Source: Rhodohalobacter mucosus
GTDB taxonomy: Bacteria; Bacteroidota; Rhodothermia; Balneolales; Balneolaceae
Reading direction: 5' to 3'
Length of the DNA stretch: 64,000 nucleotides
NCBI RefSeq assembly: GCF_003150675.1
Contig: NZ_QGGB01000005.1
Location: 62,001-126,000 of the forward strand
The notes beneath the pieces were generated by a model. That model was not told where the DNA came from and made no database searches. It was given only the letters and a program-made list of their open reading frames with translations. How positions within the stretch are numbered: position 1 is the stretch's first letter; every line of letters starts with the position of its first letter. Both the position numbers and the translations under genes were made by a program. Of the stretch, positions 20,506 through 50,780 are shown piece by piece.

Positions 20506-22224
20506 TTACAGAAAGTAAACGGCTGCAAAGATTAAAAATCCAAGCAGAACAAAGCTCATTACCACCTCCATGGCCGGGCTGTAGCCGGCGGCACGGTTCT
20601 CTTTTGAGGTGAATGGGTTGAGCCAGGTCATTGGGTTTTTGAACTGCTCAGAAAGGAATCGCGCAATTCCCAGAACGGTATCCTCAAACCAGCCATATAC
20701 CGCATTGGGTACGTTTACAAAAAGTTTGCGGACGGTGGGAGCCGGTTTTCTGTAGAACCAATCGGTATCGAGCGCAATTTTGGGATCGCCTTCCAGCTTC
20801 TTGCGAAGAATCCAGAATCCGATATAGGTAAACACCAAAATCTGAATCATCTCCACCAGATGGTAGATGGTGTAGGGCTTGTACTCAACCGGGTAGGGCA
20901 GATACTGGTAGAGGAGTGCCGGGTAAACACCGAACAGTGTGCAAAAGAAGGCACCGATACCCATCGCAACCAGCATGTTGAACGGTATGGGTCCTACCGT
21001 GATGTCACTTTTCGACTCACCGAACCAGGTGAAGTAGGGAAGCTTAAGACCCGTATGTAAGAAGGTACCCACCGAAGCGAGGATCAGCAGCAGCATCACG
21101 ACCTCCAGGTGCGCTTCGCCGGCGGAACTCACCACCATCGACTTACTGATAAATCCGTTAAACAGCGGGAAACCGGAGATCGAGAAAGCTCCGATCATGT
21201 AGAGAAAAACCACCGCTTTCATTTTGGATGCGAATCCGCCAAGCTCCGTAAGTTTGCTCTTGCCGGTTGAATAGAGAACCGCACCGGCCCCCATAAACAG
21301 CAGTGATTTGTACAATATATGGCTGAATGCGTGGGCTGTGGTGCCATTTAAAGCCATTTCAGTTCCGATACCCACACCGGCCACCATATATCCAACCTGC
21401 GAAATAATGTGATAGGCAAGGATTTGACGGATATCGTTCGCCAGTACCGCATACACCACACCGTATAGCGCCATGGCCACTCCAAACCAGATCAGAATAT
21501 CCCAGCCGGGGAAAACCCGCACGAGAACATAGACGGCCGACTTGGTTGTAAACGCACTCATGAATACCGCGCCTGTAACGGTGGCCTTGGGATAGGCATC
21601 GGCCAGCCATGCATGAAGCGGTGGTATGGCGGAGTTGATGGCCACGCCAAGAAGAATCAGAACGGATGAAAACGTATATGCATCGGGCAGGCTTTCAACG
21701 GTTATGGAACCGGTCTGGCTGATATGCCACAGTATGCCGCTGAAAAGGAGGCCGCCCCCGAAAATATGAACCAGCAGATAGCGGAGTCCCGCTTCGTTGG
21801 TCTCCTGCGTGCGTCGGGCCCAGATCAAATAGGTGGAGCTGACGGCCATCAGCTCCCAGAAAATAAACAGGGAAAACCAGTCGCCGGCAAATGTGACCCC
21901 AAGCGCTCCTCCACCGTAAACAAGCGCCGAAGTTTGCTGGCCAAGATCTTTCAGGTGAAAGGCGTAAATGCCTCCTATCACGGCAATCATTGCGAATATG
22001 GTGCCGAAGATACGGCTGAGCGAATCCACAAAAACCGGTGTGAGCTCATAACTGCCGAAAGGAACGGTAAGCGAGTAACCGTCGGGCAGCTGCCACAGTA
22101 CTCCCAGGGCCGCCAGCGGGAAGAGCAGGAACGCCGGGGAGCGCAGCTTTTCGGGGATCAGAGGGAGGACAAAGGCTCCCAAAATGACAATTACAGCCGG
22201 CATGAGAAGCAAATCAACGATCAT
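20506..22224 (-). CDS. MrpD/NuoL-like antiporter subunit lacking the TM7 lysine
   Basis: A 572-residue polytopic protein of the proton-conducting transporter family (Proton_antipo_M), last gene of the Mrp operon. The TM5 glutamate is present in FWELMAVSS and the TM8 lysine in FTTKSAVYVLVR. At the TM7 position where the other paralogues read GVKA, this one reads A-I-N-S, so the conserved lysine is asparagine. A long C-terminal extension (about 450-572) contains amphipathic stretches around DTDWFYRKPAP and VYGWFEDTVLG, resembling the lateral helix of NuoL/MrpA. It may stand in for the missing NuoL-like half of MrpA. It overlaps the 71-residue gene upstream by 11 bp. Confidence 0.85.
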   Translation of the reverse strand: MIVDLLLMPAVIVILGAFVLPLIPEKLRSPAFLLFPLAALGVLWQLPDGYSLTVPFGSYELTPVFVDSLSRIFGTIFAMIAVIGGIYAFHLKDLGQQTSALVYGGGALGVTFAGDWFSLFIFWELMAVSSTYLIWARRTQETNEAGLRYLLVHIFGGGLLFSGILWHISQTGSITVESLPDAYTFSSVLILLGVAINSAIPPLHAWLADAYPKATVTGAVFMSAFTTKSAVYVLVRVFPGWDILIWFGVAMALYGVVYAVLANDIRQILAYHIISQVGYMVAGVGIGTEMALNGTTAHAFSHILYKSLLFMGAGAVLYSTGKSKLTELGGFASKMKAVVFLYMIGAFSISGFPLFNGFISKSMVVSSAGEAHLEVVMLLLILASVGTFLHTGLKLPYFTWFGESKSDITVGPIPFNMLVAMGIGAFFCTLFGVYPALLYQYLPYPVEYKPYTIYHLVEMIQILVFTYIGFWILRKKLEGDPKIALDTDWFYRKPAPTVRKLFVNVPNAVYGWFEDTVLGIARFLSEQFKNPMTWLNPFTSKENRAAGYSPAMEVVMSFVLLGFLIFAAVYFL

Positions 22225-22429
22225 AATACTCCTCGCTTCTGAAGATGAACAGTTTGCCCAGCCACTTGCTTACATAAATGATCACAACGCAGCTTAAAAA
22301 CCCCCAATAGATATAAAATCCGGGTATGGCGTTCCACCAGTGTGAATCGTAATCGGCCAGGAATACAAACTCCAGAACCAGGCTGATCACGGTCAGAATG
22401 CCGAGTGCTATCCAGTGCCAGGTTTTCAT
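22214..22429 (-). CDS. Small two-helix membrane protein in Mrp operon
   Basis: A 71-residue protein with two predicted membrane helices (about 5-26 and 36-58) and a charged tail. I do not recognise a named family. It sits between two MrpD-like genes, 43 bp after the upstream one and overlapping the downstream one by 11 bp, so it is very likely translated as part of the antiporter operon. Aromatic residues (HWWNAIPGFYIYWGF) cluster at the loop between the helices. An accessory subunit helping assembly of the terminal D-like subunit is an inference from position only. Confidence 0.7.
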   Translation of the reverse strand: MKTWHWIALGILTVISLVLEFVFLADYDSHWWNAIPGFYIYWGFLSCVVIIYVSKWLGKLFIFRSEEYYDR

Positions 22430-22472
22430 ATAAATATCGGATTCATGTGTTTCGGTATCGTTTCCGGATGGC

Positions 22473-23954
22473 CTAGCCTCCGGTAAAAAGTGTTGCGGCT
22501 ATTGCGCTTGCCAGGTCAAAAAAGTTGAAAAAGAGATTCGGGAAGATCCCGAACAGAATCGAAAGTACCGCCGTTGCGAAAAGGGGCACCACCATAAAAG
22601 GGGATGCCTCACCATAATTTTCGAGTCCCTCGCCTTTGCGGAAATACGCGCGCTGGATGATCGGGAAGAAATAACCGATGTTCAGCAGGCCGCTAACCAC
22701 AAGAATAAGTAGCGGAATAATCATGTCTCCTTCAAGGGAACCGAGCGCCAGGTACCATTTGCTTACAAATCCGTTAATTGGAGGTACGCCGGCAAGCCCC
22801 ATCGATCCGATGGTAAACGCAGCCATGGTCCAGGGCATCACTTTTGCAATACCGTTCAGCTCGCTGATGTTCTCTTTATGGAGGTTTACATAGATTGCTC
22901 CGGCGCAAAAGAAGAGGGTGATTTTCATTGTGGCGTGTGCCGCAATGTGCATAATGCCTCCCTGCATCCCCAGAGGTGTGATCAGCGCTACGCCGAGAAC
23001 GATGTAGGACAGGTGGCCCACGGTTGAATAGGCCAGCCGGCGCTTCAGGTTATCCTGTGCAAAAGCAAGGAGTGACGCAATAATGATGGTCGCTCCGGCC
23101 AGTACAATCAGAATATCGTTCAGGCCATATGCCAGCATCACGTCGGTGCCAATCACAAAGCCGACGACCCGTATTACGGCAAACACACCCGATTTCACCA
23201 CGGCTACGGCGTGCAGCAATGCACTTACCGGTGTGGGAGCGGCCATAGCGGAGGGCAGCCAGCTGTGAATCGGCATAATGCCCGCTTTCACGCCCACCGC
23301 ACCCAGGAAAAGTATAAAAATGACCAGCATGGCTGAGTGGGGGATATCCGTGTTGTTGAAGAGTCCGCCCGGGGTAAAGTCAAGGCTCCCTGTATAGGTG
23401 TACACCATTCCGGATGCAGCTATTAGCAGTAGTCCGGCGGTAAGGGTGTATGCGAGATATTTTCGTCCCGCATTGATCGCTTTGCTATTCTCCTTGTGAA
23501 TCACAAGGGGATAGGTGGCCAGCGTCAGCATTTCATAGAAAAGAATAAACGTGAGAAGGTTGGCTGAAAAAGCGATGCCTATTGTAGCGGACAGACACAC
23601 TGCAAAACTGGCAAAATACCGGGTTTGCTTGTGTTCGCCCGCTCCGCGTACGTAACCGATGGAGTAGAAGGATGTGAATATCCACAATCCGGATGCAATC
23701 ACCGCAAAGAACACACCCAGCGGATCGGCTTTCAGTGCAAGCGGCAATCCCGGCGCCAGGTCCAGGATATGCAGCTCAACCGAACTGCCCTCAATGGCTC
23801 CGGGGAGCAGTGTAAGCACCAACCCGAATTTGACGACGGCCGCCAGGATGGTCCAGAATTCCCGCAGGTTTGGTTTCTCCGAACTCAGCAGAATCGGGAC
23901 CACCGCAACCAGCGATACCAGAATTGCCATCAAAGGAACAAGAGAAAGATCCAT
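22473..23954 (-). CDS. mrpD: MrpD-like cation/proton antiporter subunit, second copy
   Basis: A 493-residue polytopic protein of the Proton_antipo_M family with about 14 helices. The TM5 glutamate lies in FYEMLTLATY. The TM7 lysine is in GVKAGIMPIHSWLP, followed by APTPVSALLHAVAVVKSG with the TM8 histidine and lysine. These are the residues thought to form the proton channel in MrpD, NuoM and NuoN. It is the second of three D-like genes in the operon, separated by 117 bp from the first. Such extra D-like subunits occur in some Mrp-like and Mbh-like complexes and presumably add a further ion-pumping unit. Both lysines are intact, unlike in the third copy. Confidence 0.88.
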   Translation of the reverse strand: MDLSLVPLMAILVSLVAVVPILLSSEKPNLREFWTILAAVVKFGLVLTLLPGAIEGSSVELHILDLAPGLPLALKADPLGVFFAVIASGLWIFTSFYSIGYVRGAGEHKQTRYFASFAVCLSATIGIAFSANLLTFILFYEMLTLATYPLVIHKENSKAINAGRKYLAYTLTAGLLLIAASGMVYTYTGSLDFTPGGLFNNTDIPHSAMLVIFILFLGAVGVKAGIMPIHSWLPSAMAAPTPVSALLHAVAVVKSGVFAVIRVVGFVIGTDVMLAYGLNDILIVLAGATIIIASLLAFAQDNLKRRLAYSTVGHLSYIVLGVALITPLGMQGGIMHIAAHATMKITLFFCAGAIYVNLHKENISELNGIAKVMPWTMAAFTIGSMGLAGVPPINGFVSKWYLALGSLEGDMIIPLLILVVSGLLNIGYFFPIIQRAYFRKGEGLENYGEASPFMVVPLFATAVLSILFGIFPNLFFNFFDLASAIAATLFTGG

Positions 23955-23971
23955 CGGTTATGTTTAGGAAT

Positions 23972-24025
23972 TACAAATTTTTGTTAGTTGTCAAATGTCA
24001 GTTGTCTGTTGTCAATTGGACACTG
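23972..24025. repeat. Short degenerate tandem repeat in the spacer between mrpD copies
   Basis: The 117-bp gap between two mrpD-like genes contains a run of 6-7-bp degenerate units of the form TTGTCAA / TGTCAGT / TGTCTGT. It is the only sizeable gap inside an otherwise tightly packed operon. There is no T-tract or palindrome suggesting a terminator. Confidence 0.45.
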
Positions 24026-24071
24026 TATACTCCATTCAATACGCACGCTTCATCCTATTCAGAACAAGGCG

Positions 24072-25553
24072 CTACATCGGGAAGACTCCCAAAAGGATTC
24101 CAACGATGGCCGCATTTGCAAAGCCAATCACAAACAGGCTGACAGCCAGCACGGAGGTGGGTATCAGCATGGATGCTTTCGGCTCGTTATAGGATCCGCC
24201 GGAAGGTTGTTTCTGCTCCTTCGACGGATTCATCATATATACTTTTTCAAGAATGCGGAAGAAATAGACCGCATTAAGCAGTGAACTCACAAGTATCACT
24301 GCAAGGAACAGCCAGTTGCTGTTGTCGATGGTTCCAAGCGCCAGGTACCACTTGCTGAAGAATCCCGCAAGCGGAGGGAGGCCCACCATCGATATGGCGC
24401 CAATCGAAAAGGCCGCCATGGTCCAGGGATATTTTTTCCGGTAGCTGTCATTGAATAGGCTGATATCGGAATGACCCTCTTTCACCCGAAGATGACCGCT
24501 CACCATGAAAAGACAGGCTTTCATGACGGCGTGGTTCAGCACATGAAGCAGGGCGCCTGCGAATCCCCATGGATTGGCCAGGCTGAGGCCCATAATAATA
24601 TATCCGATCTGTGATACCGAGCTGTAAGCCAGCATCCTCTTCATTTCCGTTTGCGCAATGGCCATGACAGAACCATACAGTATGCCTACACATGCCAGAA
24701 CACCCACTACATAGGAGACAGGAGCAAACGCATCGGTAAGCTCGATGCCGAAAAGCCAGAGCATAATTCTGAACAGAATGTAGGCTCCGACCTTTGTTCC
24801 GATGGGTGCAATTAGTGCAGTGGAGCTTGTAGCGGCATAGGTGTAGGAGTCGGGCAACCAGCCATGCATGGGGAAAAGGGCTGCCTTCACACCGATCCCC
24901 ACAATCATCAGTATCAGGGCGGCAAATGCGGCCGAGCTGTCTATGAACATCGGGAGCATGGCGGTCATGTCAATAATATTGAGCGTACCTGTAACCGTGT
25001 ATAGAAACCCGACACCAAGCAAATAAAGCGTGCCGCCGGTGGTTCCGATAATGAGGTAGCGAAATGCCGCAAAAGGGGCCGGTTTGTCTCCGATGGAAAT
25101 CAGCGCATACGACGACAGGGAGGAGATTTCCAGAAATACATAAAGATTGAAAAGGTCACCGGTCATCAGCATCCCGTTAAAACCGAGCAGCATAAGCATC
25201 GAAAGGGCAAAATAGGGCATCACCTTGTCGGGAAATTCAATTCTGGAAATTTCCCTGGAGTAGATCAGTACAAAGAATGCAACCAAATTAATGACCAGTA
25301 CGAAAAAACCGGAAAGCCCATCATACACGAACTCAATTCCGATAGGCGGTTCCCATCCGCCAAAGTAGTATCGGATCATCCCGTTGTTCAGATAATCGAT
25401 AAAACCAATCAGTGAAAATAGAGAAGCCAGGCCGGTACCCAGGACGGCAAGCGGCTGACAAAGATCCCGCCTCCAGAGTCCAAACGACGGAATCAGGATG
25501 GAGAACAGAACGTAAGTCAGAGCGATGTAAGCAGGAATATGCGACTCGATCAT
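24072..25553 (-). CDS. mrpD: Na+/H+ antiporter subunit MrpD
   Basis: A 493-residue polytopic subunit of the Mrp antiporter. The TM5 glutamate is in FLEISSLSSYALI, the TM7 lysine in GVKAALFPMHGWLPDSY, and the TM8 region contains TSSTALIAPIGTKVGAYI with its lysine. The C-terminal part keeps GLPPLAGFFSKWYL, a loop typical of MrpD. It overlaps mrpC by 4 bp, following the standard C-D order, so I regard this copy as the orthologous MrpD. It acts in the cytoplasmic membrane, exchanging cytoplasmic Na+ for external H+ as part of the hetero-oligomeric complex. Confidence 0.93.
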   Translation of the reverse strand: MIESHIPAYIALTYVLFSILIPSFGLWRRDLCQPLAVLGTGLASLFSLIGFIDYLNNGMIRYYFGGWEPPIGIEFVYDGLSGFFVLVINLVAFFVLIYSREISRIEFPDKVMPYFALSMLMLLGFNGMLMTGDLFNLYVFLEISSLSSYALISIGDKPAPFAAFRYLIIGTTGGTLYLLGVGFLYTVTGTLNIIDMTAMLPMFIDSSAAFAALILMIVGIGVKAALFPMHGWLPDSYTYAATSSTALIAPIGTKVGAYILFRIMLWLFGIELTDAFAPVSYVVGVLACVGILYGSVMAIAQTEMKRMLAYSSVSQIGYIIMGLSLANPWGFAGALLHVLNHAVMKACLFMVSGHLRVKEGHSDISLFNDSYRKKYPWTMAAFSIGAISMVGLPPLAGFFSKWYLALGTIDNSNWLFLAVILVSSLLNAVYFFRILEKVYMMNPSKEQKQPSGGSYNEPKASMLIPTSVLAVSLFVIGFANAAIVGILLGVFPM

Positions 25554-25918
25554 TGAATTTTTTCTATCAGTTCCTGTTCATCCAGCGTGCCGTAACGGTT
25601 ATAGATCGCCATGAGCAGTGTAAAAGCTACGCCCAGTGTTGCAACACCTACCACGATGGCGGTCAGCATCAGCGTATGGGGAAGCGGGTTAAGGTACTGT
25701 GCTACCTGATCAACCGGGATGGAATCATCAATTACTGTAACGGTAGCTCCCCACTTGGAGGCAATGGCCACAAAATAGAGCACAACGGAAGCCTGTATAA
25801 TCACAAGGCCAAGGGTTTTCTTGACCAGGTTCTTTTTGAAAAGAATGCCGTACAAACCGATGCACAGAAGTATAATTGTAAACCAATAGGCATAATGGCC
25901 CGTAATAAAATCAACCAT
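25550..25918 (-). CDS. mrpC: Na+/H+ antiporter subunit MrpC (NuoK-like)
   Basis: A 122-residue three-helix protein homologous to NuoK/MnhC. The first helix includes the start of LCIGLYGILFKKNLVKK, and the last helix contains LTAIVVGVATLGVAFTLLMAIY, the stretch typical of NuoK-like proteins. It overlaps mrpD by 4 bp and mrpB by 8 bp, so translation is likely coupled. In the Mrp complex this subunit packs against MrpA and MrpD and forms part of the central ion path. Confidence 0.92.
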   Translation of the reverse strand: MVDFITGHYAYWFTIILLCIGLYGILFKKNLVKKTLGLVIIQASVVLYFVAIASKWGATVTVIDDSIPVDQVAQYLNPLPHTLMLTAIVVGVATLGVAFTLLMAIYNRYGTLDEQELIEKIQ

Positions 25919-26351
25919 AGTCTTCCCCTTTAACCATATTGTCGAATATCATAATCAGGATAGCCATTACAGCGAGACCAATTCCCACTTCAATGATAAG
26001 AATACCGTAGTAACGCAGCATATCAGGTTCAAGGCCCGGAATGGGCAGCTGGCCGTAATCCAGAAAATAGCCACCCATGGCCATTGCGGTGAGTCCGGTT
26101 GCGAAATAGATCAGCACACCCACAACCGCAAGAGGGGTGGTTGCAAATTCCTGAATCTGCAGCCGCGATATTCTGCGTCCGCTGGCCACCCTCATCAGCA
26201 GGACGGATGCCGCAAGAAGCGCACCACCCTGGAATCCGCCGCCGGGGCTGTAGTGCCCGAAAAAAATTACATACCACCCGAAAACCATGATGTAGGGGCT
26301 CAGAAGACGGGCACCCAGGAGTACAATCGGACTTTCAAACTGACGCCTCAT
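25911..26351 (-). CDS. mrpB: Na+/H+ antiporter subunit MrpB (MnhB domain)
   Basis: A 146-residue four-helix membrane protein with the MnhB domain. The defining stretch FGHYSPGGGFQGGALLAAS lies between the first two helices. It overlaps mrpC by 8 bp and the MbhE-like gene by 4 bp. The order DUF4040, MbhE-like, MnhB, NuoK-like, D is that of the Mbh/Mbs sodium-translocation module, and MrpB is equivalent to MbhF. Confidence 0.92.
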   Translation of the reverse strand: MRRQFESPIVLLGARLLSPYIMVFGWYVIFFGHYSPGGGFQGGALLAASVLLMRVASGRRISRLQIQEFATTPLAVVGVLIYFATGLTAMAMGGYFLDYGQLPIPGLEPDMLRYYGILIIEVGIGLAVMAILIMIFDNMVKGEDYG

Positions 26352-26668
26352 AGTGCGGAACTCCTCCCAAGCCTTCTGGTTCGGCGCAGCACCAGCAGAG
26401 TAATGAGTCCCGCGGTGTAGATTACAATCTGTTCGCCAAACGTATCAACGCTTCGATAGTCGCCCAGTATAACCGTTACAATATTGGGAGTATGAGCATC
26501 ACGATATGCATTTTGAATGGCATAATTCCCGATTACGCGCGTATTGTTAACGCTGCGCTCTGCATGCATGCGGTTATCGGGATCGCCCCGGAAAGGCAGG
26601 TCGGAAGCTGCGAAAATCATGATCGCTGCAAACAGAATCAGTAAAAGTATTTTTAAGCCTTTCTGCAT
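26348..26668 (-). CDS. MbhE-like subunit (C-terminal MrpA fragment)
   Basis: A 106-residue protein with two membrane helices (about 5-22 and 82-98) and an extracytoplasmic middle. The segment VTVILGDYRSVDTFGEQIV matches the MbhE / MrpA C-terminal domain, with GDYR.xDT.GE as its core. In canonical MrpA this domain is fused to a NuoL-like part; here it is a free protein. It overlaps mrpB by 4 bp and follows the DUF4040 gene by 3 bp. It is predicted to sit in the same complex, helping form the sodium channel region. Confidence 0.85.
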   Translation of the reverse strand: MQKGLKILLLILFAAIMIFAASDLPFRGDPDNRMHAERSVNNTRVIGNYAIQNAYRDAHTPNIVTVILGDYRSVDTFGEQIVIYTAGLITLLVLRRTRRLGRSSAL

Positions 26669-26671
26669 GGG

Positions 26672-26917
26672 TTAATCGTTTGAGTGTCTTGACGTTTGAT
26701 AAATCACAACCACGAACAGGATTCCGGTGATGCCTGCACCTATAACAGCCTCTGTAAAGCCAACGTCAATAGCCCCCATGGCAATGAAGAGCAGGGCCAT
26801 CAGAAAGCTGAAAACAGTCATCAAAACTACCGCAACCAACAGGTCCCTGCTTTCCAGGGCAACTACTGCCGTGATTGCCAAAAAGAGATAAAGTACCAGT
26901 TCCAGCTCCCAGATCAT
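26672..26917 (-). CDS. DUF4040/MbhD-like subunit (NuoJ-like part of MrpA)
   Basis: An 81-residue three-helix protein corresponding to the DUF4040 (MbhD) domain, with the core stretch AIDVGFTEAVIGAGITGIL. In most bacteria this domain is part of the large MrpA; here it is separate, as in the archaeal Mbh module. It overlaps mrpG by 4 bp (ATGA) and is 3 bp from the MbhE-like gene. The conserved glutamate in FTEAVIG is present and is thought to take part in ion movement in MrpA. Confidence 0.87.
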   Translation of the reverse strand: MIWELELVLYLFLAITAVVALESRDLLVAVVLMTVFSFLMALLFIAMGAIDVGFTEAVIGAGITGILFVVVIYQTSRHSND

Positions 26918-27240
26918 GACGCTTTCTCCTCCTCAATATCATCCTGAAGTTTGGCTTTCAACCCCTTCTTTATAGCGGCTTTTGCAAGTGCGTGAGAACC
27001 GACAGGGTTTGCCAGGGCAATGAAAAGAATAATGAGAACCAGTTTAAGGCTGCTCAGGGTGAAACCTTCGTAGATAACCAGGCCGCTGATTACAAAAATA
27101 ACGCCCAGCGTATCACTCTTGCTCACAGCGTGCGTCCGCGTGAAAAAGTCAGGAAGCCTGATGATGCCCACGCTGCCTACAAGAATAAATGCAATGCCAA
27201 GAACCACAAGAACGATGGTGAGGATATTCTGAATCTCCAT
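26914..27240 (-). CDS. mrpG: Na+/H+ antiporter subunit MrpG
   Basis: A 108-residue three-helix subunit (MnhG/PhaG). The signature GIIRLPDFFTRTHAVSKSD is complete at about residues 24-42, followed by the second helix TLGVIFVISGLVIY. It overlaps the DUF4040 gene by 4 bp and follows mrpF by only a few bases. The role is structural or ion-translocating within the Mrp complex. Confidence 0.93.
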   Translation of the reverse strand: MEIQNILTIVLVVLGIAFILVGSVGIIRLPDFFTRTHAVSKSDTLGVIFVISGLVIYEGFTLSSLKLVLIILFIALANPVGSHALAKAAIKKGLKAKLQDDIEEEKAS

Positions 27241-27243
27241 AAA

Positions 27244-27516
27244 TCAATTCCTCCTGGTTCTGGGTGATTCAATATATTTTGCAATGGCAAGCGATCCCAC
27301 AAACCCGAGAACGGCGTAGGCCAGCGTAATATCGATAAACATGTCGATGCGGCCGAAAAGAAACCCGATGAGGCAAATCAGCACAATGGTTTTGGTGGCG
27401 ATGGCATTGGTTGCAAGAATGCGGTCGAATACAGATGGACCTTTTACAACCCGGATCAGCGGGATGGCGATAATGATCGTCAAAACAACAGCGCTATAGA
27501 GAAAAAAATCTTCCAT
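27244..27516 (-). CDS. mrpF: Na+/H+ antiporter subunit MrpF
   Basis: A 90-residue three-helix subunit (MnhF/PhaF), with the conserved RVVKGPSVFDRILATNAI motif after the first helix and DITLAYAVLGFVG in the last. MrpF is associated with sodium or bile-salt efflux in other bacteria. It lies between mrpE (32 bp gap) and mrpG (3 bp gap), in the order E-F-G. Confidence 0.93.
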   Translation of the reverse strand: MEDFFLYSAVVLTIIIAIPLIRVVKGPSVFDRILATNAIATKTIVLICLIGFLFGRIDMFIDITLAYAVLGFVGSLAIAKYIESPRTRRN

Positions 27517-27548
27517 TGATGGTATTAAGCTGAAACAGGTTGGCCCGT

Positions 27549-28106
27549 TTATACCTCCGAGGCTTTCGTGACCACTCGTACATTGCTCACAACCTGGCGG
27601 TCTTCATCGGAAAAGAGCTTTAAAACCTGACGCGGCATCTCATCGTTAATGATACCTTCCCGTGATTTGGTATCGATGGAGTGAACCGTGAACCTGCTTC
27701 CGGAAATATCAAGTGTTATGGTGCCCGGCGTAAGCGTGATAGAGTTTCCCAGAATCATGCGCGCGTGTACGTTAGGCAGATCCGCGTCGAAAGTGATGAT
27801 CGCGGGCTTGATGGGCATGGCAGGCCGTGCGATAAGTTTCAGGACATGAAAACCGGCAACAATAATTTGACCGATCATCCAGAAAAAATAGTATGTAGCC
27901 CTTCCGTACCTCAGCTGCTGCAGCCCGTCGATATCATCCTCGAAAAACCTGTATCGCCTCACATTGTGATTTACGTAGAGCACGCTGGCTACGGAGAATA
28001 CACCAAAGCCGATATAAATCGCGTCAAACTTACCACTCATAATGAGCCAGAAGATCATCAGAGTGGTGAAGGAAGTTGCAAGACTAAAAAACGAGAGCTT
28101 TTTCAT
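27549..28106 (-). CDS. mrpE: Na+/H+ antiporter subunit MrpE
   Basis: A 185-residue subunit, first gene of the leftward operon. Two or three N-terminal helices precede the conserved cytoplasmic part with NSITLTPGTITLDISG, the MnhE signature. The protein is slightly longer than typical MrpE (about 160 residues) owing to its C-terminal tail. Being first, it is probably served by a promoter in the 321-bp divergent region shared with nuoL. Confidence 0.92.
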   Translation of the reverse strand: MKKLSFFSLATSFTTLMIFWLIMSGKFDAIYIGFGVFSVASVLYVNHNVRRYRFFEDDIDGLQQLRYGRATYYFFWMIGQIIVAGFHVLKLIARPAMPIKPAIITFDADLPNVHARMILGNSITLTPGTITLDISGSRFTVHSIDTKSREGIINDEMPRQVLKLFSDEDRQVVSNVRVVTKASEV

Positions 28107-28427
28107 CAGTTGGTTTGATACCGGATTTTACCCGCACAATTCAATGTCAAAGAACATATCAAAAAAGAGGAATCATCTGCAATAAATTCTGGATGCTTTC
28201 TGCAGGCAGGTAATATACTTTATAATAAAGGGCTCCAGCTCTTTTGCTTTCTTTTACAGTTAGGAATCCCTTAATTGCGTGCGCGGGCAGAGAGTGACTA
28301 AGAACTGCGTTGAGATTTACCCCTAATTGAGTTTATCTTGGAACAGATTTTTGTATCTTTGCCACCTGAAATTTCGTGGCTTTCATTATTGGCCTCTTTA
28401 AGCGCAAAATTATAATTAACCTGTTGA
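28107..28427. other. Divergent control region between Mrp operon and nuoL
   Basis: This 321-bp gene-free stretch separates the leftward antiporter operon from the rightward nuoL-M-pcd-N operon. On the plus strand it carries a clear TATCTTTG box (annotated separately). No equally clear box was found for the leftward operon. No riboswitch or tRNA was seen. Confidence 0.5.
28327..28361 (+). promoter_or_regulatory. Bacteroidota-type promoter for nuoL
   Basis: TATCTTTG at 28354-28361 fits the -7 consensus TAnnTTTG exactly and is preceded by a T-run (TTTTTG), a common Bacteroidota context. TTG triplets lie at 28327 and 28338, neither at the ideal 19-21 base spacing. Transcription would start near 28368, giving a leader of about 60 bases. 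Confidence 0.5.
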
Positions 28428-30446
28428 ATGGAATCACCCACAGCGCTCGTTAGCCTGATCGTAGGTCTGCCGTTGCTCGGTTTTGTACTTAATGGTTTGC
28501 TGGGCTTGTCATCTGAAGGATACCGGGAAAAGAAAACCCTCATCGGAGCGATAGCCAATCTATCAGTTTTTATTCCATTTCTGATCGCTCTATACTTTTT
28601 CATCAATTTTACTTCGGGTTCAGAAGCGGTATCCGCGAAGCTTTTTACGTGGATGCAGGCCGGATCCTTTTCAGCCGACATTGCCTACAGTCTGGATGAA
28701 CTTTCACTGGTAATGGTATTGGTTGTAACCGGTGTGGGCTCGCTGATTCACTTCTACTCGATCGGCTACATGTTTCATGATCCGGGGTACTGGAAGTTTT
28801 TCTCCTACCTGAATCTGTTCATCTTTGCCATGCTGAATCTTGTTATGGCAGATAACCTCCTGCTGCTGTTTCTTGGCTGGGAAGGTGTGGGCCTCTGTTC
28901 GTACCTGCTTATCGGGTTTTGGTATACGGATATGCTGAAGTCGGATGCAGCCAAAAAAGCATTTCTCTACAACAGGGTGGGGGACTTCGCATTTCTGATC
29001 GCTATCTTTATGATTTTTGAGGCGGTTGGCAGTCTCAATTTTGATGTAATACTGGCCAATCTTGACCTTTTTACGGATGATGCCCTGTTCTGGATCGCTT
29101 TCCTGATGTTTATCGGAGCAACCGGAAAAAGCGCTCAGATTCCGCTCTTCGTATGGCTGCCGGATGCCATGGCAGGCCCCACATCGGTTTCGGCACTGAT
29201 TCACGCGGCAACGATGGTTACCTCCGGAATTTATCTGATTACCCGCCTTTCGCCGATGTATGTGATGAGTCCTGAAATTCTAATGATTGTAGCCGCAATC
29301 GGTGCCCTTACGGCCATTGTTGCCGCCACCATTGCCATTACACAAAATGATATCAAAGGAGTTCTCGCATATTCCACGGTTTCACAGCTGGGCTTTATGT
29401 TCCTTGCGCTTGGATCGGGAGCCTACACGGCGGCGATTTTTCATGTGGCAACGCACGCTTTTTTCAAGGCGTGTCTCTTCCTGGGCTCCGGATCTGTCAT
29501 TCACACCATGGAGCATGTTGAGCACGAATTGCATGACAAAGGCAAACATGTTCATTTCGATCCCCAGGATATCCGTTTTATGGGTGGTCTTCGAAAATAT
29601 ATGCCGCACACCTACAAAACTTTTTTGATTGCCACGATTGCCATTGCGGGTATTCCACCGCTCGCAGGTTTCTTCTCGAAAGATGAGATCGTAATGCATA
29701 CATTCAACATGGGCTTCGGTGAATTTGCGGGCGCAATGTACTTTGTTCTCTGGACCGTTGCGACTATAACCGCTTTTCTTACTGCATTTTACATGTTCAG
29801 GCTTACCCTTACCACATTTCACGGAAAATTCAGGCTTCCTGATAAGGTGGAGGGCGCGGAGGATGCCGCTTCATATCTCCACGAGAGTCCGGTAACCATG
29901 ACCTTTCCGCTTTGGGCACTGGCTGTTCTTTCTATTGTGGGGGGCTTTATTGGAATACCTAATTTTATCTCAAAAACATTTGGCGGCGACGGACATATCA
30001 ACTGGCTGCACGACTGGCTGAGCCCGGTAGCGGCGGATATACCGCTCACTCTCTCCATACCGGCTGAGTGGGTTCTAATGATTTTTGCAATTCTGGTTGC
30101 TGTGGGAGGCGTTTTTCTTGCTTTCAGAATGTACGGCCAGGGGCAGCAGGAGGAGTCGGATGCGGCTATCGAGCGTCGTTTCGGCGGTCTTTACCAGGTG
30201 TGGAAAGAGAAATACAACTTCGATGAAGCCTATGAAGGGGCTATTGTTCAGCCCATTGTGAAATTTTCAGATAAGGTACTGGCCGTTTTCGATATGAAAG
30301 TTGTTGACGGCATCGTGAACGCTGTGGGCGGTACGGTGCGGCTGGTCGGTAGCCTGCTTCGGTATATTCAAACAGGAATTGCAACGAGTTATGCCCTCTT
30401 TCTTATTCTGGGTGTGATTCTCGTACTAACCATGCTGCTTTTTTAA
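28428..30446 (+). CDS. nuoL: NADH-quinone oxidoreductase subunit L
   Basis: A 672-residue NuoL, the distal antiporter-like subunit of complex I. The TM5 glutamate is in GWEGVGLCSYLLIGFW, the TM7 lysine in GATGKSAQIPLFVWLPDAM, and the TM8 histidine in SALIHAATMVTSG. The C-terminal 110 residues (from about KEKYNFDEAYEG) form the long lateral amphipathic helix and final TM typical of NuoL, which separates it from MrpA and MrpD proteins. No nuoA-K genes lie nearby, so the rest of complex I must be encoded elsewhere. NuoM follows after 6 bp. Confidence 0.95.
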   Translation: MESPTALVSLIVGLPLLGFVLNGLLGLSSEGYREKKTLIGAIANLSVFIPFLIALYFFINFTSGSEAVSAKLFTWMQAGSFSADIAYSLDELSLVMVLVVTGVGSLIHFYSIGYMFHDPGYWKFFSYLNLFIFAMLNLVMADNLLLLFLGWEGVGLCSYLLIGFWYTDMLKSDAAKKAFLYNRVGDFAFLIAIFMIFEAVGSLNFDVILANLDLFTDDALFWIAFLMFIGATGKSAQIPLFVWLPDAMAGPTSVSALIHAATMVTSGIYLITRLSPMYVMSPEILMIVAAIGALTAIVAATIAITQNDIKGVLAYSTVSQLGFMFLALGSGAYTAAIFHVATHAFFKACLFLGSGSVIHTMEHVEHELHDKGKHVHFDPQDIRFMGGLRKYMPHTYKTFLIATIAIAGIPPLAGFFSKDEIVMHTFNMGFGEFAGAMYFVLWTVATITAFLTAFYMFRLTLTTFHGKFRLPDKVEGAEDAASYLHESPVTMTFPLWALAVLSIVGGFIGIPNFISKTFGGDGHINWLHDWLSPVAADIPLTLSIPAEWVLMIFAILVAVGGVFLAFRMYGQGQQEESDAAIERRFGGLYQVWKEKYNFDEAYEGAIVQPIVKFSDKVLAVFDMKVVDGIVNAVGGTVRLVGSLLRYIQTGIATSYALFLILGVILVLTMLLF

Positions 30447-30452
30447 GACGAT

Positions 30453-32078
30453 ATGACTATGGAGCTTCTTCTCAATATTGTTATCTATCTGCCGGTTGCG
30501 GGTATTGCTGCCCTTTTCGCAGTAAAAAGCGATGAAGCGGTAAAGTGGGTGAGCCTGGTTGTTACCTTTGCTGCGTTCATTCTGTCTCTGCCCCTGCTAT
30601 TCGGATTCGACATCGCCAATTCAGCGGTGCCTCAGTACCTTACAGAAGGGGGGATGGTTTTCAGCGGCATGGATGTGAAGTACCTGGTGGGGCTTGACGG
30701 CCTGAGCCTGCTTCTCTTTATGCTTACCACCCTGATGGGACCAATAGTGATTCTCTCATCCTGGAATTCGGTCACCAAGAGCCTGAAAGGCTATTATTCG
30801 ATGCTCCTTCTGCTTCAGACAGCATCGCTTGGCGTGTTTGCGGCTCTTGACCTGGTTGTATTTTACGTATTCTTCGAGCTTTCACTTATCCCCATGTATT
30901 TTCTTATTGGCATCTGGGGTGGTGCTGACCGGATCAAGGCTACCATCAAATTTTTTATCTACACCCTGGTGGGTTCACTTCTGATGCTAGTTGCGCTTCT
31001 TTACCTCGGGTATGACGCAGGTGCCTCCACCGGCCTGTACGACTTTACTTCCGACTGGCGGTACATTTCAGGTCCCGAATATACCCTGGGCCTGGTTGAA
31101 CAGACATGGCTTTTTCTGGCGTTTGCCCTTGCTTTCTGTATCAAGGTGCCGCTCTTTCCGTTTCACACCTGGCTGCCCTATGCGCATACGGAAGCACCAA
31201 CAGCCGGTTCTGTTGTTCTTGCGGCGATCATGCTGAAACTGGGAACCTATGGCCTGATCCGCGTTGCCATGCCGGCATTTCCGAATGCATTCATGGAGTT
31301 CGCGCCCTGGATGGCTGTACTGGCCGTGATCGGTATAATTTACGGCGCCCTGGTAGCCATGGTTCAGAAAGATGTGAAGAAACTGGTGGCCTACTCGTCG
31401 GTGAGCCACATGGGTTTTGTGGTTTTGGGGATATTTGCGTTTAACACCGTTTCAATGCAGGGGGCCATCATTCAGATGATTAATCACGGACTTGCCACCG
31501 GAGCACTCTTCCTGATTGTAGGGATGATTTATGATCGTCGTCACACCCGCATGATTTCTGATTTTGGCGGACTTGCAAAGCAGATACCCGTATTTGCCGT
31601 CATGTTCATGATTGCAACACTTGCCTCCATTGGCCTTCCCGGACTGAACGGCTTTGTGGGTGAGTTCCTGATTCTGAACGGATCCTTCTTCTCTGAGTTA
31701 TACGCCAATAAAACATACGCAGTTCTGTCGGCTACGGGTGTAATTCTGGCGGCGGTATATATGCTATGGATGTACCAGAGAGTGATGTTTGGTCCCATTA
31801 CACAGGAAGAGAACAAAACGTTGTCCGATCTGAACGCGCGTGAAGTGGGACTGCTGGTGCCGCTTATGCTATTTATGTTCTGGATCGGTATTCGTCCTAT
31901 CGATTTCACCCAATATTCTGAGCAATGGGTAGAAAGTTATATCGATGCTTCAGCTCAGAAAGGCGAACAGGTTCTCGAAACAAGCAGCCTGGATGAGCTG
32001 CCCGACTGGACAGCCAGACTTTACGATGTAGGAACCGTAGAGAGAGAAGATGACGGTACGCTTGTTTCAACGCAGTAA
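30453..32078 (+). CDS. nuoM: NADH-quinone oxidoreductase subunit M
   Basis: A 541-residue NuoM. The TM5 glutamate lies in FFELSLIPMYFLIGIWGG and the TM7 lysine in CIKVPLFPFHTWLPYAH. EAPTAGSVVLAAIMLKLGTYG carries the TM8 lysine. The protein is somewhat longer than E. coli NuoM because of a hydrophilic C-terminal tail rich in acidic residues after WIGIRPIDFTQYS. It pumps protons in the membrane arm of complex I. Starts at 30453 or 30459 (ATG) are both possible. Confidence 0.95.
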   Translation: MTMELLLNIVIYLPVAGIAALFAVKSDEAVKWVSLVVTFAAFILSLPLLFGFDIANSAVPQYLTEGGMVFSGMDVKYLVGLDGLSLLLFMLTTLMGPIVILSSWNSVTKSLKGYYSMLLLLQTASLGVFAALDLVVFYVFFELSLIPMYFLIGIWGGADRIKATIKFFIYTLVGSLLMLVALLYLGYDAGASTGLYDFTSDWRYISGPEYTLGLVEQTWLFLAFALAFCIKVPLFPFHTWLPYAHTEAPTAGSVVLAAIMLKLGTYGLIRVAMPAFPNAFMEFAPWMAVLAVIGIIYGALVAMVQKDVKKLVAYSSVSHMGFVVLGIFAFNTVSMQGAIIQMINHGLATGALFLIVGMIYDRRHTRMISDFGGLAKQIPVFAVMFMIATLASIGLPGLNGFVGEFLILNGSFFSELYANKTYAVLSATGVILAAVYMLWMYQRVMFGPITQEENKTLSDLNAREVGLLVPLMLFMFWIGIRPIDFTQYSEQWVESYIDASAQKGEQVLETSSLDELPDWTARLYDVGTVEREDDGTLVSTQ

Positions 32079-32103
32079 CAATTAATTTACCATAACCAAT
32101 ACC

Positions 32104-32394
32104 ATGAACACATTAACCAGAGATGAGATCGACCGTGAACTGAAAGAACTCAATGGCTGGGAGTTCAGTAACGATAAAATTCACCGTGAGCTTACATTCG
32201 GGGATTTCAGGCAGGCTCTCTCTTTTATGGTTCGGGTGGGTTTTGAGGCCGAAGAGCTTGTTCATCATCCCGAATGGAGAAATGTGTACAACACGGTCAA
32301 TATCAGCCTTAGCACGCATGATGCGGGCGACAAAGTAACATCCAAAGACATTAACCTCGCCAAAGCGATCGACAAGATTTATAAAACGTACTGA
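32104..32394 (+). CDS. Pterin-4a-carbinolamine dehydratase between nuoM and nuoN
   Basis: A 96-residue PCD/DCoH-family protein. PCD removes water from 4a-hydroxytetrahydropterin to recycle the tetrahydropterin cofactor of aromatic amino acid hydroxylases. The active-site histidines are kept: H54-H55 in LVHHPEW and H72 in STHDAG. The usual K/N residues just before the HH pair read E-L-V here. It sits 25 bp after nuoM and 2 bp before nuoN, so it is part of the complex I operon. In Rhodothermus marinus a pcd gene lies in the same position and is co-transcribed with complex I genes. Its role there is not understood. Confidence 0.92.
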   Translation: MNTLTRDEIDRELKELNGWEFSNDKIHRELTFGDFRQALSFMVRVGFEAEELVHHPEWRNVYNTVNISLSTHDAGDKVTSKDINLAKAIDKIYKTY

Positions 32395-32396
32395 GA

Positions 32397-33836
32397 ATGG
32401 ACTACCTGCACGATATTATTTCATTTTTGCCCGGTGTCATCACCGCCGTAACGGGTTTGATCGTGATACTGCTTGCGGCATTTAAAAGGGGAGTCGGTCC
32501 TGTTTACTGGTTGTCTGTAGCCGGTTTGGCGGCTTCTCTTGTAGTCGCAGTAACCGATCTTTTCGGTGAAACAGGTACTGCATTTTCCGGCATGACCGTT
32601 TATGGAGGCGTTGCGTCATTCGGTACGGCAGTTGTTTTGCTGGGTGCGCTTCTCTGTGTGATACTCTCAAAGGAATATTTGAGTGATCAAGGGCTGAATT
32701 ACAGTGAAGTATATGGCATGGTGCTATTTGCCACTACAGGTATGCTGGGACTTGCCGTTTCAAACGACCTGATTACGCTTTTTATCAGTCTCGAAACGAT
32801 GTCGATCTCGCTCTATGTGCTTGCGGGTTTGATGTATTACGAAAAGAAAGGGGCGGAAGCGGCGCTCAAGTATTTTCTGCTGGGAGCCTTTTCCACAGGC
32901 TTCCTGCTATACGGCATTGCGCTTCTTTACGGTGCAACGGGGCATACCAACCTGAATGAAATAGCAACAGCTGCACAGCCGACGCCACTGTTTTTGGCCG
33001 GCTCAGGGCTTCTGCTTGTGGGGATCTTCTTTAAGATCGCTGCCGTACCGTTTCATATGTGGACTCCTGACGTTTACCAGGGCACACCGACTACACTTAC
33101 GGCATTCATGGCAACGGCTGCAAAATCCGCAACATTTGTCGCATTCATACTTGTTATTACCAGGATGCTGCCCGAATCGGAGGCCGGAGCCTGGGGCAAT
33201 GTGATACAGGTTGTATCCATAATTACCATGATAGTGGGAAACCTGATTGCTCTCGCACAGGACAATGTAAAACGTATGCTTGCCTACTCAAGCATTGCCC
33301 ATGCCGGCTACCTGTTGGTGGGTCTGGCAGCGGGAACTGCAGCAGGCTACTCGGGTGTACTTTACTACCTTTTCGCTTACACGCTGATGAACGTGGGTGC
33401 ATTCGGTGTGATTGCCTATTATGAACGAAACAAGGGTCTCGATTTTACAGAGATCGACAGTTACGCCGGGCTCGGATACAGGGTTCCTGCTATGGGTGTA
33501 ATGCTATCCATCTTCCTGTTTTCGCTTGCGGGTATACCGCCGTTTGTGGGCTTTATCGGAAAATACTATGTATTTGCAGCGGCCGTTAACGCAGATCTAA
33601 TTACGCTTGCCGTTATTGGAGTTCTGGCCAGTGCCGCCAGTGTGTACTACTATTTGCGTGTAATGGTGTTTATGTATTTCAGGGAAGCTCACAAGGAAGT
33701 TGAACTAAAGTCTCCAGGCATGCTCTTTAAGGCCACTCTCGTTTTGCTGGCGGTCCTCACCATCTATTACGGCGTTGAGCCTGTTCTGCCGACAACCGGA
33801 TTGATTGAGCTTATTACATCGTATTATGCGGTGTAG
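32397..33836 (+). CDS. nuoN: NADH-quinone oxidoreductase subunit N
   Basis: A 479-residue NuoN, with the TM5 glutamate in SLETMSISLYVLAG, the TM7 lysine in GIFFKIAAVPFHMWTPDVYQG, and AFMATAAKSATFVAF with the TM8 lysine. The C-terminal loop AGIPPFVGFIGKYYVF is typical. It begins 2 bp after the PCD stop, so translational coupling is likely. It is the last gene of the operon; no T-tailed terminator was seen downstream. Confidence 0.95.
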   Translation: MDYLHDIISFLPGVITAVTGLIVILLAAFKRGVGPVYWLSVAGLAASLVVAVTDLFGETGTAFSGMTVYGGVASFGTAVVLLGALLCVILSKEYLSDQGLNYSEVYGMVLFATTGMLGLAVSNDLITLFISLETMSISLYVLAGLMYYEKKGAEAALKYFLLGAFSTGFLLYGIALLYGATGHTNLNEIATAAQPTPLFLAGSGLLLVGIFFKIAAVPFHMWTPDVYQGTPTTLTAFMATAAKSATFVAFILVITRMLPESEAGAWGNVIQVVSIITMIVGNLIALAQDNVKRMLAYSSIAHAGYLLVGLAAGTAAGYSGVLYYLFAYTLMNVGAFGVIAYYERNKGLDFTEIDSYAGLGYRVPAMGVMLSIFLFSLAGIPPFVGFIGKYYVFAAAVNADLITLAVIGVLASAASVYYYLRVMVFMYFREAHKEVELKSPGMLFKATLVLLAVLTIYYGVEPVLPTTGLIELITSYYAV

Positions 33837-34132: not shown

Positions 34133-34165
34133 ATGGAAATCAACCAAAGACAAATACTTACCAGA

Positions 34166-34552
34166 ATGAAGAAAGATTTCTACGAAATGACCTACATTCT
34201 GAATCCGGTTCTCGATGAAGAGAAGTTTTCAGAAATGGTTAATTACGTCAACAAGCTTATCGAAGACAATGGCGGTGAATTGGTGGAAGTTGATGAGTGG
34301 GGAGTGAAAAAACTGGCCTACGACATCGACAAGAAAAGCACCGGCTATTATGTGAATCTCTATTTTAATGCTCCCGCAGAAACCATTGCGCCCGTTGAGC
34401 GAAACATGAGAATTCATGATGATATCATGCGTTATCTCACCCTGAAATATGATGCCAAAATGAAGCGGCATTATGACCTGCGCAAAAAAGGCGAGCTACC
34501 GGCACTTTTTGAGGATCCGGAAGGCGAGCAGGAAAGCGACGACGATAAATAA
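34166..34552 (+). CDS. rpsF: 30S ribosomal protein S6
   Basis: Ribosomal protein S6 of the 30S platform, with the conserved start F-Y-E-M-T-Y-I-L-N-P-V-L and the strand WGVKKLAYDIDKKSTGYYV. I prefer the ATG at 34166 (128 residues) because S6 homologues begin within a few residues of the 'YE..YI..P' strand. An in-frame ATG at 34133 would add 11 residues, and neither has a Shine-Dalgarno sequence. The C-terminal tail is acidic (EDPEGEQESDDDK). It heads the rpsF-rpsR-rplI operon; the ssb gene often found after rpsF is absent. Confidence 0.95.
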   Translation: MKKDFYEMTYILNPVLDEEKFSEMVNYVNKLIEDNGGELVEVDEWGVKKLAYDIDKKSTGYYVNLYFNAPAETIAPVERNMRIHDDIMRYLTLKYDAKMKRHYDLRKKGELPALFEDPEGEQESDDDK

Positions 34553-34589
34553 TTAAACTGATTACAGATTAGAATACCGGAGAACAACC

Positions 34590-34841
34590 ATGATTAACAA
34601 TCCATCACATCCGAAGAAAGGCCATCTAAAAAGCAGAGACTGCAAATTTACCAAGGCCGGCATCGAATATATCGATTACAAGCAAACCGAGATACTGGAA
34701 CGATTTGTGAACGACCAGGGAAAAATTCTGCCCCGCAGGGTAACCGGCAACAGTGCACGGCATCAGCGACAGCTCTCTACCGCTGTAAAAAGAGCTCGTT
34801 TTATGGCACTGATTCCATATGTAACTGAAAACCTGAGATAA
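34590..34841 (+). CDS. rpsR: 30S ribosomal protein S18
   Basis: An 83-residue S18, which binds S6 and 16S rRNA on the 30S platform. The core [20 protein letters not shown] and [20 protein letters not shown] is complete, including the arginine-rich rRNA-binding face. It follows rpsF by 37 bp and precedes rplI by 13 bp. A cysteine is kept near the N-terminus (RDCKF), but the multi-cysteine zinc motif of some S18 proteins is absent. Confidence 0.97.
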
Positions 34842-34854
34842 CACCAGAATTATT

Positions 34855-35301
34855 ATGAAGCTTATTTTAAAAGAAAATGTAGAAAAACTGGGTGAAGCCG
34901 GCGATCTGGTTGATGTCAAAGACGGGTACGGCCGCAACTACCTGATACCTCAGGGTAAAGCAACCCTGGCCACGCCCGGCGCCATTCGCCAGTTTGAACA
35001 CCTGCAGCGTCAGGCTGCACTTCGCGCGGATCTGTCGGTTGAAGCTGCCAAGGAACTGGCACAACAACTTGAAACAACATCCGTTACAATCCCCGTTACG
35101 GTAGGCGAAGATGACAAGATCCACGGAACAGTTACCAATATACAGGTAGCCGAAGCCCTTGAAGAGCGGGATATTATCATCGATCGCCGAAAAATCAGCC
35201 TCGATCAGGATATTAAAACCCTTGGCGAATATACCGCCACTGTTGACCTGATGGGAGATCTGAACCCTAAAGTAAAAGTCTGGGTAGTTAAGGAAGACTG
35301 A
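34855..35301 (+). CDS. rplI: 50S ribosomal protein L9
   Basis: A 148-residue L9. The N-terminal rRNA-binding domain contains the signature KLGEAGDLVDVKDGYGRNYL, followed by PQGKA. A long connecting helix (about 42-75) leads to the C-terminal domain with TVGEDDKIHGTVT. It is the last gene of the ribosomal operon, 13 bp after rpsR. A weak stem-loop follows. Confidence 0.97.
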   Translation: MKLILKENVEKLGEAGDLVDVKDGYGRNYLIPQGKATLATPGAIRQFEHLQRQAALRADLSVEAAKELAQQLETTSVTIPVTVGEDDKIHGTVTNIQVAEALEERDIIIDRRKISLDQDIKTLGEYTATVDLMGDLNPKVKVWVVKED

Positions 35302-49428: not shown

Positions 49429-49860
49429 TTGATTTACGTAACCAGAAAAGCTCATTTCAATGCATCTCACAGGCTTCATAATCCGGAGAAATCCGATCAG
49501 TGGAATCGTGAGACATTTGGCAAGTGCAACAATCCTAACTGGCACGGGCATAACTATGTGATAGAAGTCACTGTTCAGGGACTGCCGGATCCTGAAACCG
49601 GTTATGTTATCGACCTGGGAGATCTCAAATCGATTATTAAGCACAAAATCCTCGACCCGTGCGATCATAAAAACCTGAACCTGGAAGTGGATTTTCTGGA
49701 GGGAATTATACCCACTACGGAGAATCTTGTGAAGGTGTTTTTTCAACGGTTGAATGAACAGGTATCATCTGCAGCTTACGGAGAATCAAAGCTTTATTCG
49801 GTGAAGTTATTCGAGACCGAACGAAATGTTGCAGAATATTGTCCTTTCCGGAGAGATTAA
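49429..49860 (+). CDS. 6-pyruvoyl-tetrahydropterin synthase (eukaryote-like active site)
   Basis: A 143-residue PTPS/QueD-family enzyme acting on dihydroneopterin triphosphate. Zinc ligands are H14, H39 and H41 and the catalytic cysteine is C33. The motif [14 protein letters not shown] keeps the C-x5-H-x-H spacing of animal PTPS, not the shorter C-x3-H-x-H of typical QueD. This favours 6-pyruvoyl-tetrahydropterin (BH4 pathway) over the queuosine intermediate, although bacterial PTPS-type proteins can be mixed in activity. The start is a TTG at 49429, directly before the first beta-strand. FolE2, which makes the substrate, is 20 bp downstream, so the pair forms a pterin operon. Confidence 0.88.
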
Positions 49861-49880
49861 AAAAGATATACATACAGATC

Positions 49881-50780
49881 ATGATTACGACAAATTTACG
49901 ACGATTTTACGACCCCACATTTACAGTTACCGATTCATACAAGGAGAGTTTGCCCGATTTGCAAAACGGCCCTGCTTCATTGATTGAAGGAGCCAATGTA
50001 CCGATTCAGCAGGTGGGTATTTCCAATTTCAAGCTGCCACTTAAATATCCGACCCCGAGCGGTGAGCTTCTCACACTCGAGACATCGGTTGACGGATATG
50101 TAGGACTGGATGCCGGAAAGAAAGGTATCAATATGGGACGGATCATGAGAACGTTCTACAAATTTCAGCACGACGTTTTCCATCCCGACAAGCTGGAAGA
50201 GGTGCTCAAAGCCTATCAGGATGACCTGGAAAGCCGGTCAGCATTCCTGAAGCTCTCATTCAGCTATCCTATGATGAAGGAGAGCCTCCGGTCCGGATTG
50301 GCAGGGTATCAGTACTATAATGTATCCATCGAAGGCAAACTTGATGAAAGCGGACAGTTTACAAGCTATATGCACCTTGATTTCGAATACAGCAGTGCAT
50401 GTCCGTGCTCCTATGAACTATCGGAGCACGCACGGGAGTCGAGAGATCTTGCAGCCATACCGCACAGCCAGCGCAGCGTGGCCACGATTACCGCTCAGCT
50501 GAACAGTGAAATCTTTGTAGATGATATGGTAGAGATTTGCCGTGAAGCCCTTCAGACGGAAACGCAGGTAATAGTAAAGCGTGAAGATGAGCAGGCATTT
50601 GCCGAGATGAACGGTGCATTTCAGAAGTTTGTGGAGGACGCAGCACGCCTTCTTTACGACGAACTGAACAAAGATGAGCGCATCCGCGACTTTGTGGTAC
50701 GATGTGCCCACCTTGAAAGTCTGCACAGCCACGACGCCGTAAGCCGAATCTGCAAAGGCGTTCCCAACGGACTCAGGTAG
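49881..50780 (+). CDS. folE2: GTP cyclohydrolase FolE2 (type IB)
   Basis: A 299-residue FolE2 (COG1469), a metal-flexible enzyme converting GTP to 7,8-dihydroneopterin triphosphate for folate, BH4 or queuosine. The metal-binding cysteine motif lies in [18 protein letters not shown], and the histidine site in [10 protein letters not shown]. The homology begins at about residue 10 of the [14 protein letters not shown] start. I therefore chose the ATG at 49881, 20 bp after the PTPS stop, over the in-frame start 14 codons earlier that would overlap it. FolE2 is often used under zinc limitation as a replacement for FolE. Together with PTPS and the PCD gene it suggests tetrahydropterin synthesis and recycling. 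Confidence 0.93.

Follow-up and report, generated by a model that had tools for sequence, protein, structure and literature searches.

The closest described arrangement to the one examined here is that of Rhodothermus marinus, whose complex I genes are accompanied by nhaD and pcd, as the title of Melo et al. (2005, BBA 1709:95-103) indicates. The pcd gene encodes pterin-4a-carbinolamine dehydratase (PCD), which recycles the pterin of aromatic hydroxylases; PhhB acts with PhhA in this manner, according to extracts of one report (PMC3458870). Extracts of another assign PCD a role in the metabolism of the molybdenum cofactor, or Moco (PMC3223725). A further precedent is acRAF, a PCD-like protein that is suggested, again in an extract, to be a Rubisco assembly factor and whose gene lies beside a carboxysome operon (PMC12918739).

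We analyzed a 64,000-nucleotide stretch (the window) of contig NZ_QGGB01000005.1 from Rhodohalobacter mucosus, in which a pcd gene is embedded among genes for the membrane arm of complex I. On the forward strand, nuoL (28428..30446; TIGR01974, 681 bits, and NF005141, over cut-off) is followed by nuoM (30453..32078; TIGR01972, 576 bits versus a cut-off of 263.8), pcd (32104..32394, 96 amino acids; PF01329, 104 bits versus a cut-off of 26, and NF002017 over its cut-off) and nuoN (32397..33836; TIGR01770, 413 bits versus a cut-off of 332.6). The three TIGR subfamily models identify NuoL, NuoM, and NuoN as complex I subunits L, M, and N, distinct from Mrp proteins. There are 25 bp from the nuoM stop to the pcd start and 2 bp from the pcd stop to the nuoN start. 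To the right lie rpsF, rpsR, and rplI (34133..35301, forward strand; PF01250, PF01084, and PF01281/PF03948), which are syntenic in relatives. To the left, Mrp-type antiporter genes run divergently on the reverse strand (20506..28106; PF00361, PF00420, PF04039, PF01899, and NCBIfam models) and encode three PF00361 proteins, one PF00420 protein, one MnhB, and one MNHE, with small frames between them read by eye. None of the open frames listed in this interval is long enough for a full-length MrpA. A preliminary description of this DNA had given the gene order, both gaps, and residues H54, H55, and H72 of the PCD, all of which are exact. Its divergent Mrp neighbor is confirmed by the profile matches, no further nuo genes occur among the listed open frames of the window, and the 25 bp between nuoM and pcd leave nhaD absent from that interval, as had also been claimed.

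The arrangement suggests that pcd is co-transcribed with its neighbors. A promoter-like site (28389-28416, 10 of 12) lies just 5′ of nuoL, and two weak forward sites (9 of 12) fall at the pcd-nuoN junction (32369-32419). A scan of the window revealed no forward sites resembling promoters from 29053 to 32369 or terminators from 30709 to 32519, with promoter and terminator counts close to those in shuffled sequence (10 promoter-like sites versus 8.7 expected).

Other complex I genes reside on a different contig of the same genome (G000:C3, locus L067). There, nuoD, nuoF, and nuoH match over cut-off, nuoG matches below cut-off, and nuoB (partial), nuoC, and nuoE were recognized by reading translations. 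The NuoG frame (L067:13249-14979) is short at 577 amino acids, and its match to TIGR01973 covers only the first 342 of 606 positions. The genome encodes a single PCD and one phenylalanine 4-monooxygenase (NF008877 over cut-off, 256-amino-acid frame), the latter on the same contig and 101 kb from pcd. A profile search for MoaA (PF06463) gave no match in this genome. Two adjoining genes located 17 kb downstream of pcd (49432..50777, forward strand) are candidate pterin supply genes, encoding a PTPS-like protein (TIGR00039, 89.9 bits, below the cut-off of 125.5) and the GTP cyclohydrolase FolE2 (NF010200, 280 bits, over the cut-off of 215). PTPS, QueD, and folate forms are not separable by family.

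The product of the window pcd gene is best read as an ordinary PCD with predicted dehydratase activity. H54, H55, and H72 are all present, and sequence comparison matches the region to solved PCD/DCoH chains, most strongly to 4c45_A (E 8e-21). The same three histidines are kept in all 199 PCDs read from the class, including 99 from genomes with no match to the aromatic hydroxylase family PF00351. The PCD signature motif [EDKH]x3H[HN][PCS]...[HW]...D, which Naponelli reportedly set out in 2008 along with the catalytic roles of its residues, is present in 197 of these 199 proteins. Of 19 chosen pairs, 15 gave a finite dS (above 1 in several of them), and in these 15 pairwise dN/dS for pcd ranges from 0 to 0.21, both with and without a hydroxylase. 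The preliminary description had raised the prospect of a moonlighting DCoH-like dimer. The complete invariance of the three histidines (199/199) makes a solely moonlighting role unlikely.

The placement of pcd is a trait of most of the class. PCD was found in 221 of 244 class genomes and in 158 of the 162 that are near-complete. A survey of nuoM/nuoN surroundings in relatives, as the preliminary description had proposed, located pcd directly upstream of nuoN in 176 of 199 PCD loci (one locus per genome, taken from the 221 PCD-positive genomes with 20 left out), which is more than chance would give and rules out an order limited to isolated genomes. This adjacency occurs in 18 of 21 class families, the other three being f3, f13, and f20, and it is also present in genomes G024 and G030 as judged from their NuoN loci. 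Second PCD copies in G026, G069, G073, G076, G122, G126, and G223 fall outside these counts or are not the counted locus. Two of the 23 loci without adjacency (G158 and G179) run into a contig edge just past pcd. The median distance from pcd to nuoN is 15 bp, and 163 of the 176 loci have at most 100 bp between the two genes. A second, partially overlapping scan of named genomes placed pcd beside nuoN in 36 of 39 class loci by hand count, and the three exceptions (L296, L305, and L352) all lack nuoL, nuoM, and nuoN.

The surroundings of this gene pair vary among families. Many loci of f8-f17, f19, and f21 carry a gene of the PF16980 (CitMHS_2) family between nuoM and pcd, which we call NhaD-like after the name in the title of the R. 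marinus paper. No such gene was seen at this site in f1-f5 or f18 among the loci read. In these latter families, nuoK, divergent Mrp genes, or divergent nhaD lie to the left of nuoL, depending on genus, wherever the flank is long enough. The order nuoN-rpsF-rpsR-rplI or nuoN-sod is likewise conserved nearby. The class-wide pcd-nuoN pattern appears to be new here, with the R. marinus arrangement already in print as far as its title conveys. Among the literature matches listed, a set whose scope excludes most subscription journals, there is no paper on pcd-nuo linkage besides the R. marinus citation.

Linkage is not a trait of this type of PCD sequence as such, as 41 loci from outside the class with similar PCDs show no nuo match above 50 bits (40 are titled as Verrucomicrobia, Verrucomicrobiota, or Opitutae types and one as Phycisphaerae, and some of the contigs are short). 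In a PCD tree, which was built on 99 columns only and has many weak forks, the class PCDs do not form a clean clade, with Verrucomicrobiota and two f31 PCDs placed among the linked class proteins. The single PCD of G072 groups with the type found in family f28, and the f13 PCDs cluster with another Bacteroidota PCD. The f20 PCD falls inside Verrucomicrobiota. These three cases look like replacement of the linked gene by an unlinked copy. PCDs that remain in place in genomes lacking complex I group among the linked ones.

These latter genomes form one half of a set of natural deletions. No nuoH match was found in 34 of the 244 class genomes or in 12 of the 162 near-complete ones, and all 12 of the latter have PCD. 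An emptied nuoL/M/N site still occupied by pcd, with rpsF or sod following it, is seen at 12 loci, each from a nuoH-less genome (ten of these genomes are near-complete). The order is Mrp-pcd-rpsF in G021, pcd-rpsF at a contig end in G028, divergent nhaD-pcd-rpsF in G032, G033, G036, G039, G040, G041, G082, and G084, and nhaD-pcd-sod in G216 and G218. The rpsF-rpsR-rplI cluster serves as a marker of the site in such complex I-less relatives. NuoN does not match over the family cut-off in any of these 12 genomes, and the matches in G021 and G028 are Mrp-like only. Three nuoH-less f13 genomes, including the near-complete G159 and G160, carry PCD elsewhere and are uninformative regarding retention in place. 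From this distribution, we infer three to four independent losses of complex I with pcd kept in place.

The converse separation also occurs. In G103, G104, G105, and G072, nuoM adjoins nuoN without pcd, and the same is true of a more distant complex I in G235-G237; by taxon, the pcd-less order was found in f3, G072, and f20. Absence of PCD is convincing in only one of the four near-complete genomes that lack a match, namely G105 (90% complete), which has nuoH. For the PCD-less G056, a contig end cuts off the sequence immediately 5′ of nuoN, and no pcd-type nuoN turned up in G050 or G147. A second, more distant type of nuoN exists in G056, G103, G128, and G129, each with two NuoN matches over cut-off, and also in G045, G050, and G121, where the flanks were read and nuoM adjoins it without pcd. 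Because pcd and the complex separate in both directions, a complex I function for PCD becomes less likely. An assembly factor should be lost with its complex and required where the complex is present, and pcd follows neither pattern. PCD as a subunit or assembly factor is therefore not our leading view, given that gene and complex are lost independently of each other. PCD activity seems to be wanted in the cell, and its genomic place seems dispensable. The preliminary description had taken the persistence of pcd at this site to imply a real link with complex I. The persistence stands (176/199 loci, 18/21 families), but the natural deletions oppose a working link, leaving the proposed connection only partly supported.

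We favor, with a probability of roughly 0.6, the reading that an ordinary, active PCD has been inherited and co-expressed within an old nuo operon while acting independently of complex I. The gene would have joined the nuo operon at its end ahead of the diversification of the class, and would have been inherited there since. Co-expression with complex I would presumably scale PCD to respiratory capacity, which may be the regulatory reason for the linkage. The enzyme, as its conserved residues predict, would dehydrate 4a-hydroxy-tetrahydropterin to quinonoid dihydropterin, probably in the cytoplasm and with no need for complex I. In R. mucosus, the phenylalanine 4-monooxygenase gene lying 101 kb away would supply the obvious partner for this reaction.

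That partner is not available to every member of the class. PF00351 matches in 76 of 162 near-complete genomes and MoaA in 83 of 162. No PF00351 match was found in 125 of the 244 class genomes (86 of the 162 near-complete), which excludes an aromatic hydroxylase as the universal partner. Likewise, Moco is excluded as the universal partner by the absence of a MoaA (PF06463) match in the R. mucosus genome and in 79 of the 162 near-complete genomes. The usual source of PCD substrate is missing in 84 of the 158 near-complete PCD genomes because these have no PF00351 match; 37 match neither PF00351 nor MoaA, and nuoH is present in 35 of them. Genus g64, which we take to be that of R. marinus, is represented by seven genomes, all with MoaA and without a PF00351 match. 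A model with two partners, in which PCD is kept for either one, would fit, because PF00351 is found in 10 of 12 nuoH-less versus 66 of 150 nuoH-bearing near-complete genomes (Fisher p 0.013, uncorrected for kinship). A long form of the hydroxylase, with PF00351 matching in two pieces and open frames mostly of about 590 amino acids, is present in G001, G005, G032-034, G036, G039-041, f2, f3, and G107, unlike the 256-amino-acid frame of R. mucosus.

A second neighborhood of pcd and complex I genes exists in another class of Bacteroidota. In a phylum sample of 148 near-complete genomes, 111 of them outside the class, PCD is found in 80 of the 111, and 71 of these 80 also match NuoN. Coordinates place PCD within about 11 kb of NuoN in three of them, G303, G338, and G247, where pcd lies at the opposite end of the operon and diverges from nuoA (loci read for G303 and G247, coordinates used for G338). 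The PCDs of these three genomes branch apart from the linked class PCDs in the tree. The class of G303 comprises 98 genomes, 54 with PCD; eight of the 98 have pcd and nuoA diverging from each other within 0.8 kb (G303:C8, G338:C6, G344:C50, G411:C105, G412:C66, G413:C35, G414:C54, and G247:C1). By a split on family f28 that was made after the result was seen, the pairing occurs in 8 of 12 genomes outside this family and in none of its 86 members, of which 42 have PCD (G406, among these, has no NuoA match). Of the remaining genomes outside f28, G309, G347, and G416 lack the pairing, and in G415 the two genes are 17 kb apart. This second pairing makes accident less comfortable as an explanation and weighs against the inherited-PCD reading.

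Perhaps PCD instead performs a dehydratase role that is coupled to respiration and needs neither an aromatic hydroxylase nor Moco, such as removing the 4a-hydroxy or quinonoid pterins that oxygen chemistry would generate close to an active NADH-oxidizing chain. We consider this unlikely. It would account for the 35 near-complete genomes with PCD and nuoH and no PF00351 or MoaA match, for the invariance of the three histidines in genomes without those matches, for the adjacency in 18 of 21 families, and for the nuoA pairing in the other class (8/98 genomes, 8/12 outside f28). However, G021 and G084 retain PCD with no match to nuoH, PF00351, or MoaA, whereas G105 has nuoH and no PCD match, the pairing is absent from all 86 genomes of the largest family of the other class, and the proposed role lacks a known substrate. 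An extended form of this speculation, which we regard as unlikely, is that the class PCD has a dehydratase function that is independent of aromatic amino acid hydroxylases and of Moco and is tied to aerobic respiration, and that on two or more occasions in Bacteroidota its gene was for this reason incorporated in a complex I operon or placed next to one.

It is quite improbable that rare rearrangement alone, with no selection on co-expression, has kept pcd in place. The conserved neighboring order nuoN-rpsF-rpsR-rplI or nuoN-sod is what such a frozen accident would produce. Yet the locus has otherwise changed a great deal, with the NhaD-like gene inserted, lost, or moved and with Mrp genes or nuoK to the left of nuoL, and pcd and nuoN have nonetheless stayed tightly spaced. 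Finally, it is very improbable that a PCD dimer or tetramer assists complex I in assembly or regulation, a role that might be suggested by the acRAF precedent (extracts of PMC12918739) and by the placement of pcd immediately before nuoN in most class members, given that pcd outlives complex I in place in several lineages, that nuoM-nuoN elsewhere stands without pcd, and that the catalytic histidines never decay.

An intact PCD gene is thus kept within the respiratory operon by the majority of a bacterial class, a warning that operon neighbors are not to be taken for subunits. Genomes that lost complex I and kept pcd, or moved pcd and kept complex I, provide ready controls. In our judgment, the part most worth following is the partner of PCD in genomes without hydroxylase and MoaA matches. 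With 37 of 158 near-complete PCD genomes in this category, the old oddity of R. marinus becomes a testable question on the role of PCD.

The window locus resembles the R. marinus type in that pcd lies between nuoM and nuoN, directly upstream of nuoN. The precedent cited in the preliminary description, which included nhaD, agrees with the title of the R. marinus paper. All seven g64 genomes show the order nuoM, NhaD-like gene, pcd, nuoN. In contrast, the window has nothing between nuoM and pcd, has divergent Mrp genes beside nuoL, and has a pcd-nuoN gap of 2 bp rather than the 49 bp of the g64 genome G166. With PCDs of the PhhB type (Pterin_4a, PF01329, COG2154), the window protein shares the family match, the three histidines, and the signature motif, but its gene is not beside phhA, and the PF00351 gene is 101 kb away. 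It resembles acRAF in being PCD-like and in having its gene next to those for a large, unrelated complex; the difference is that pcd in this class stays in place after complex I has been lost.
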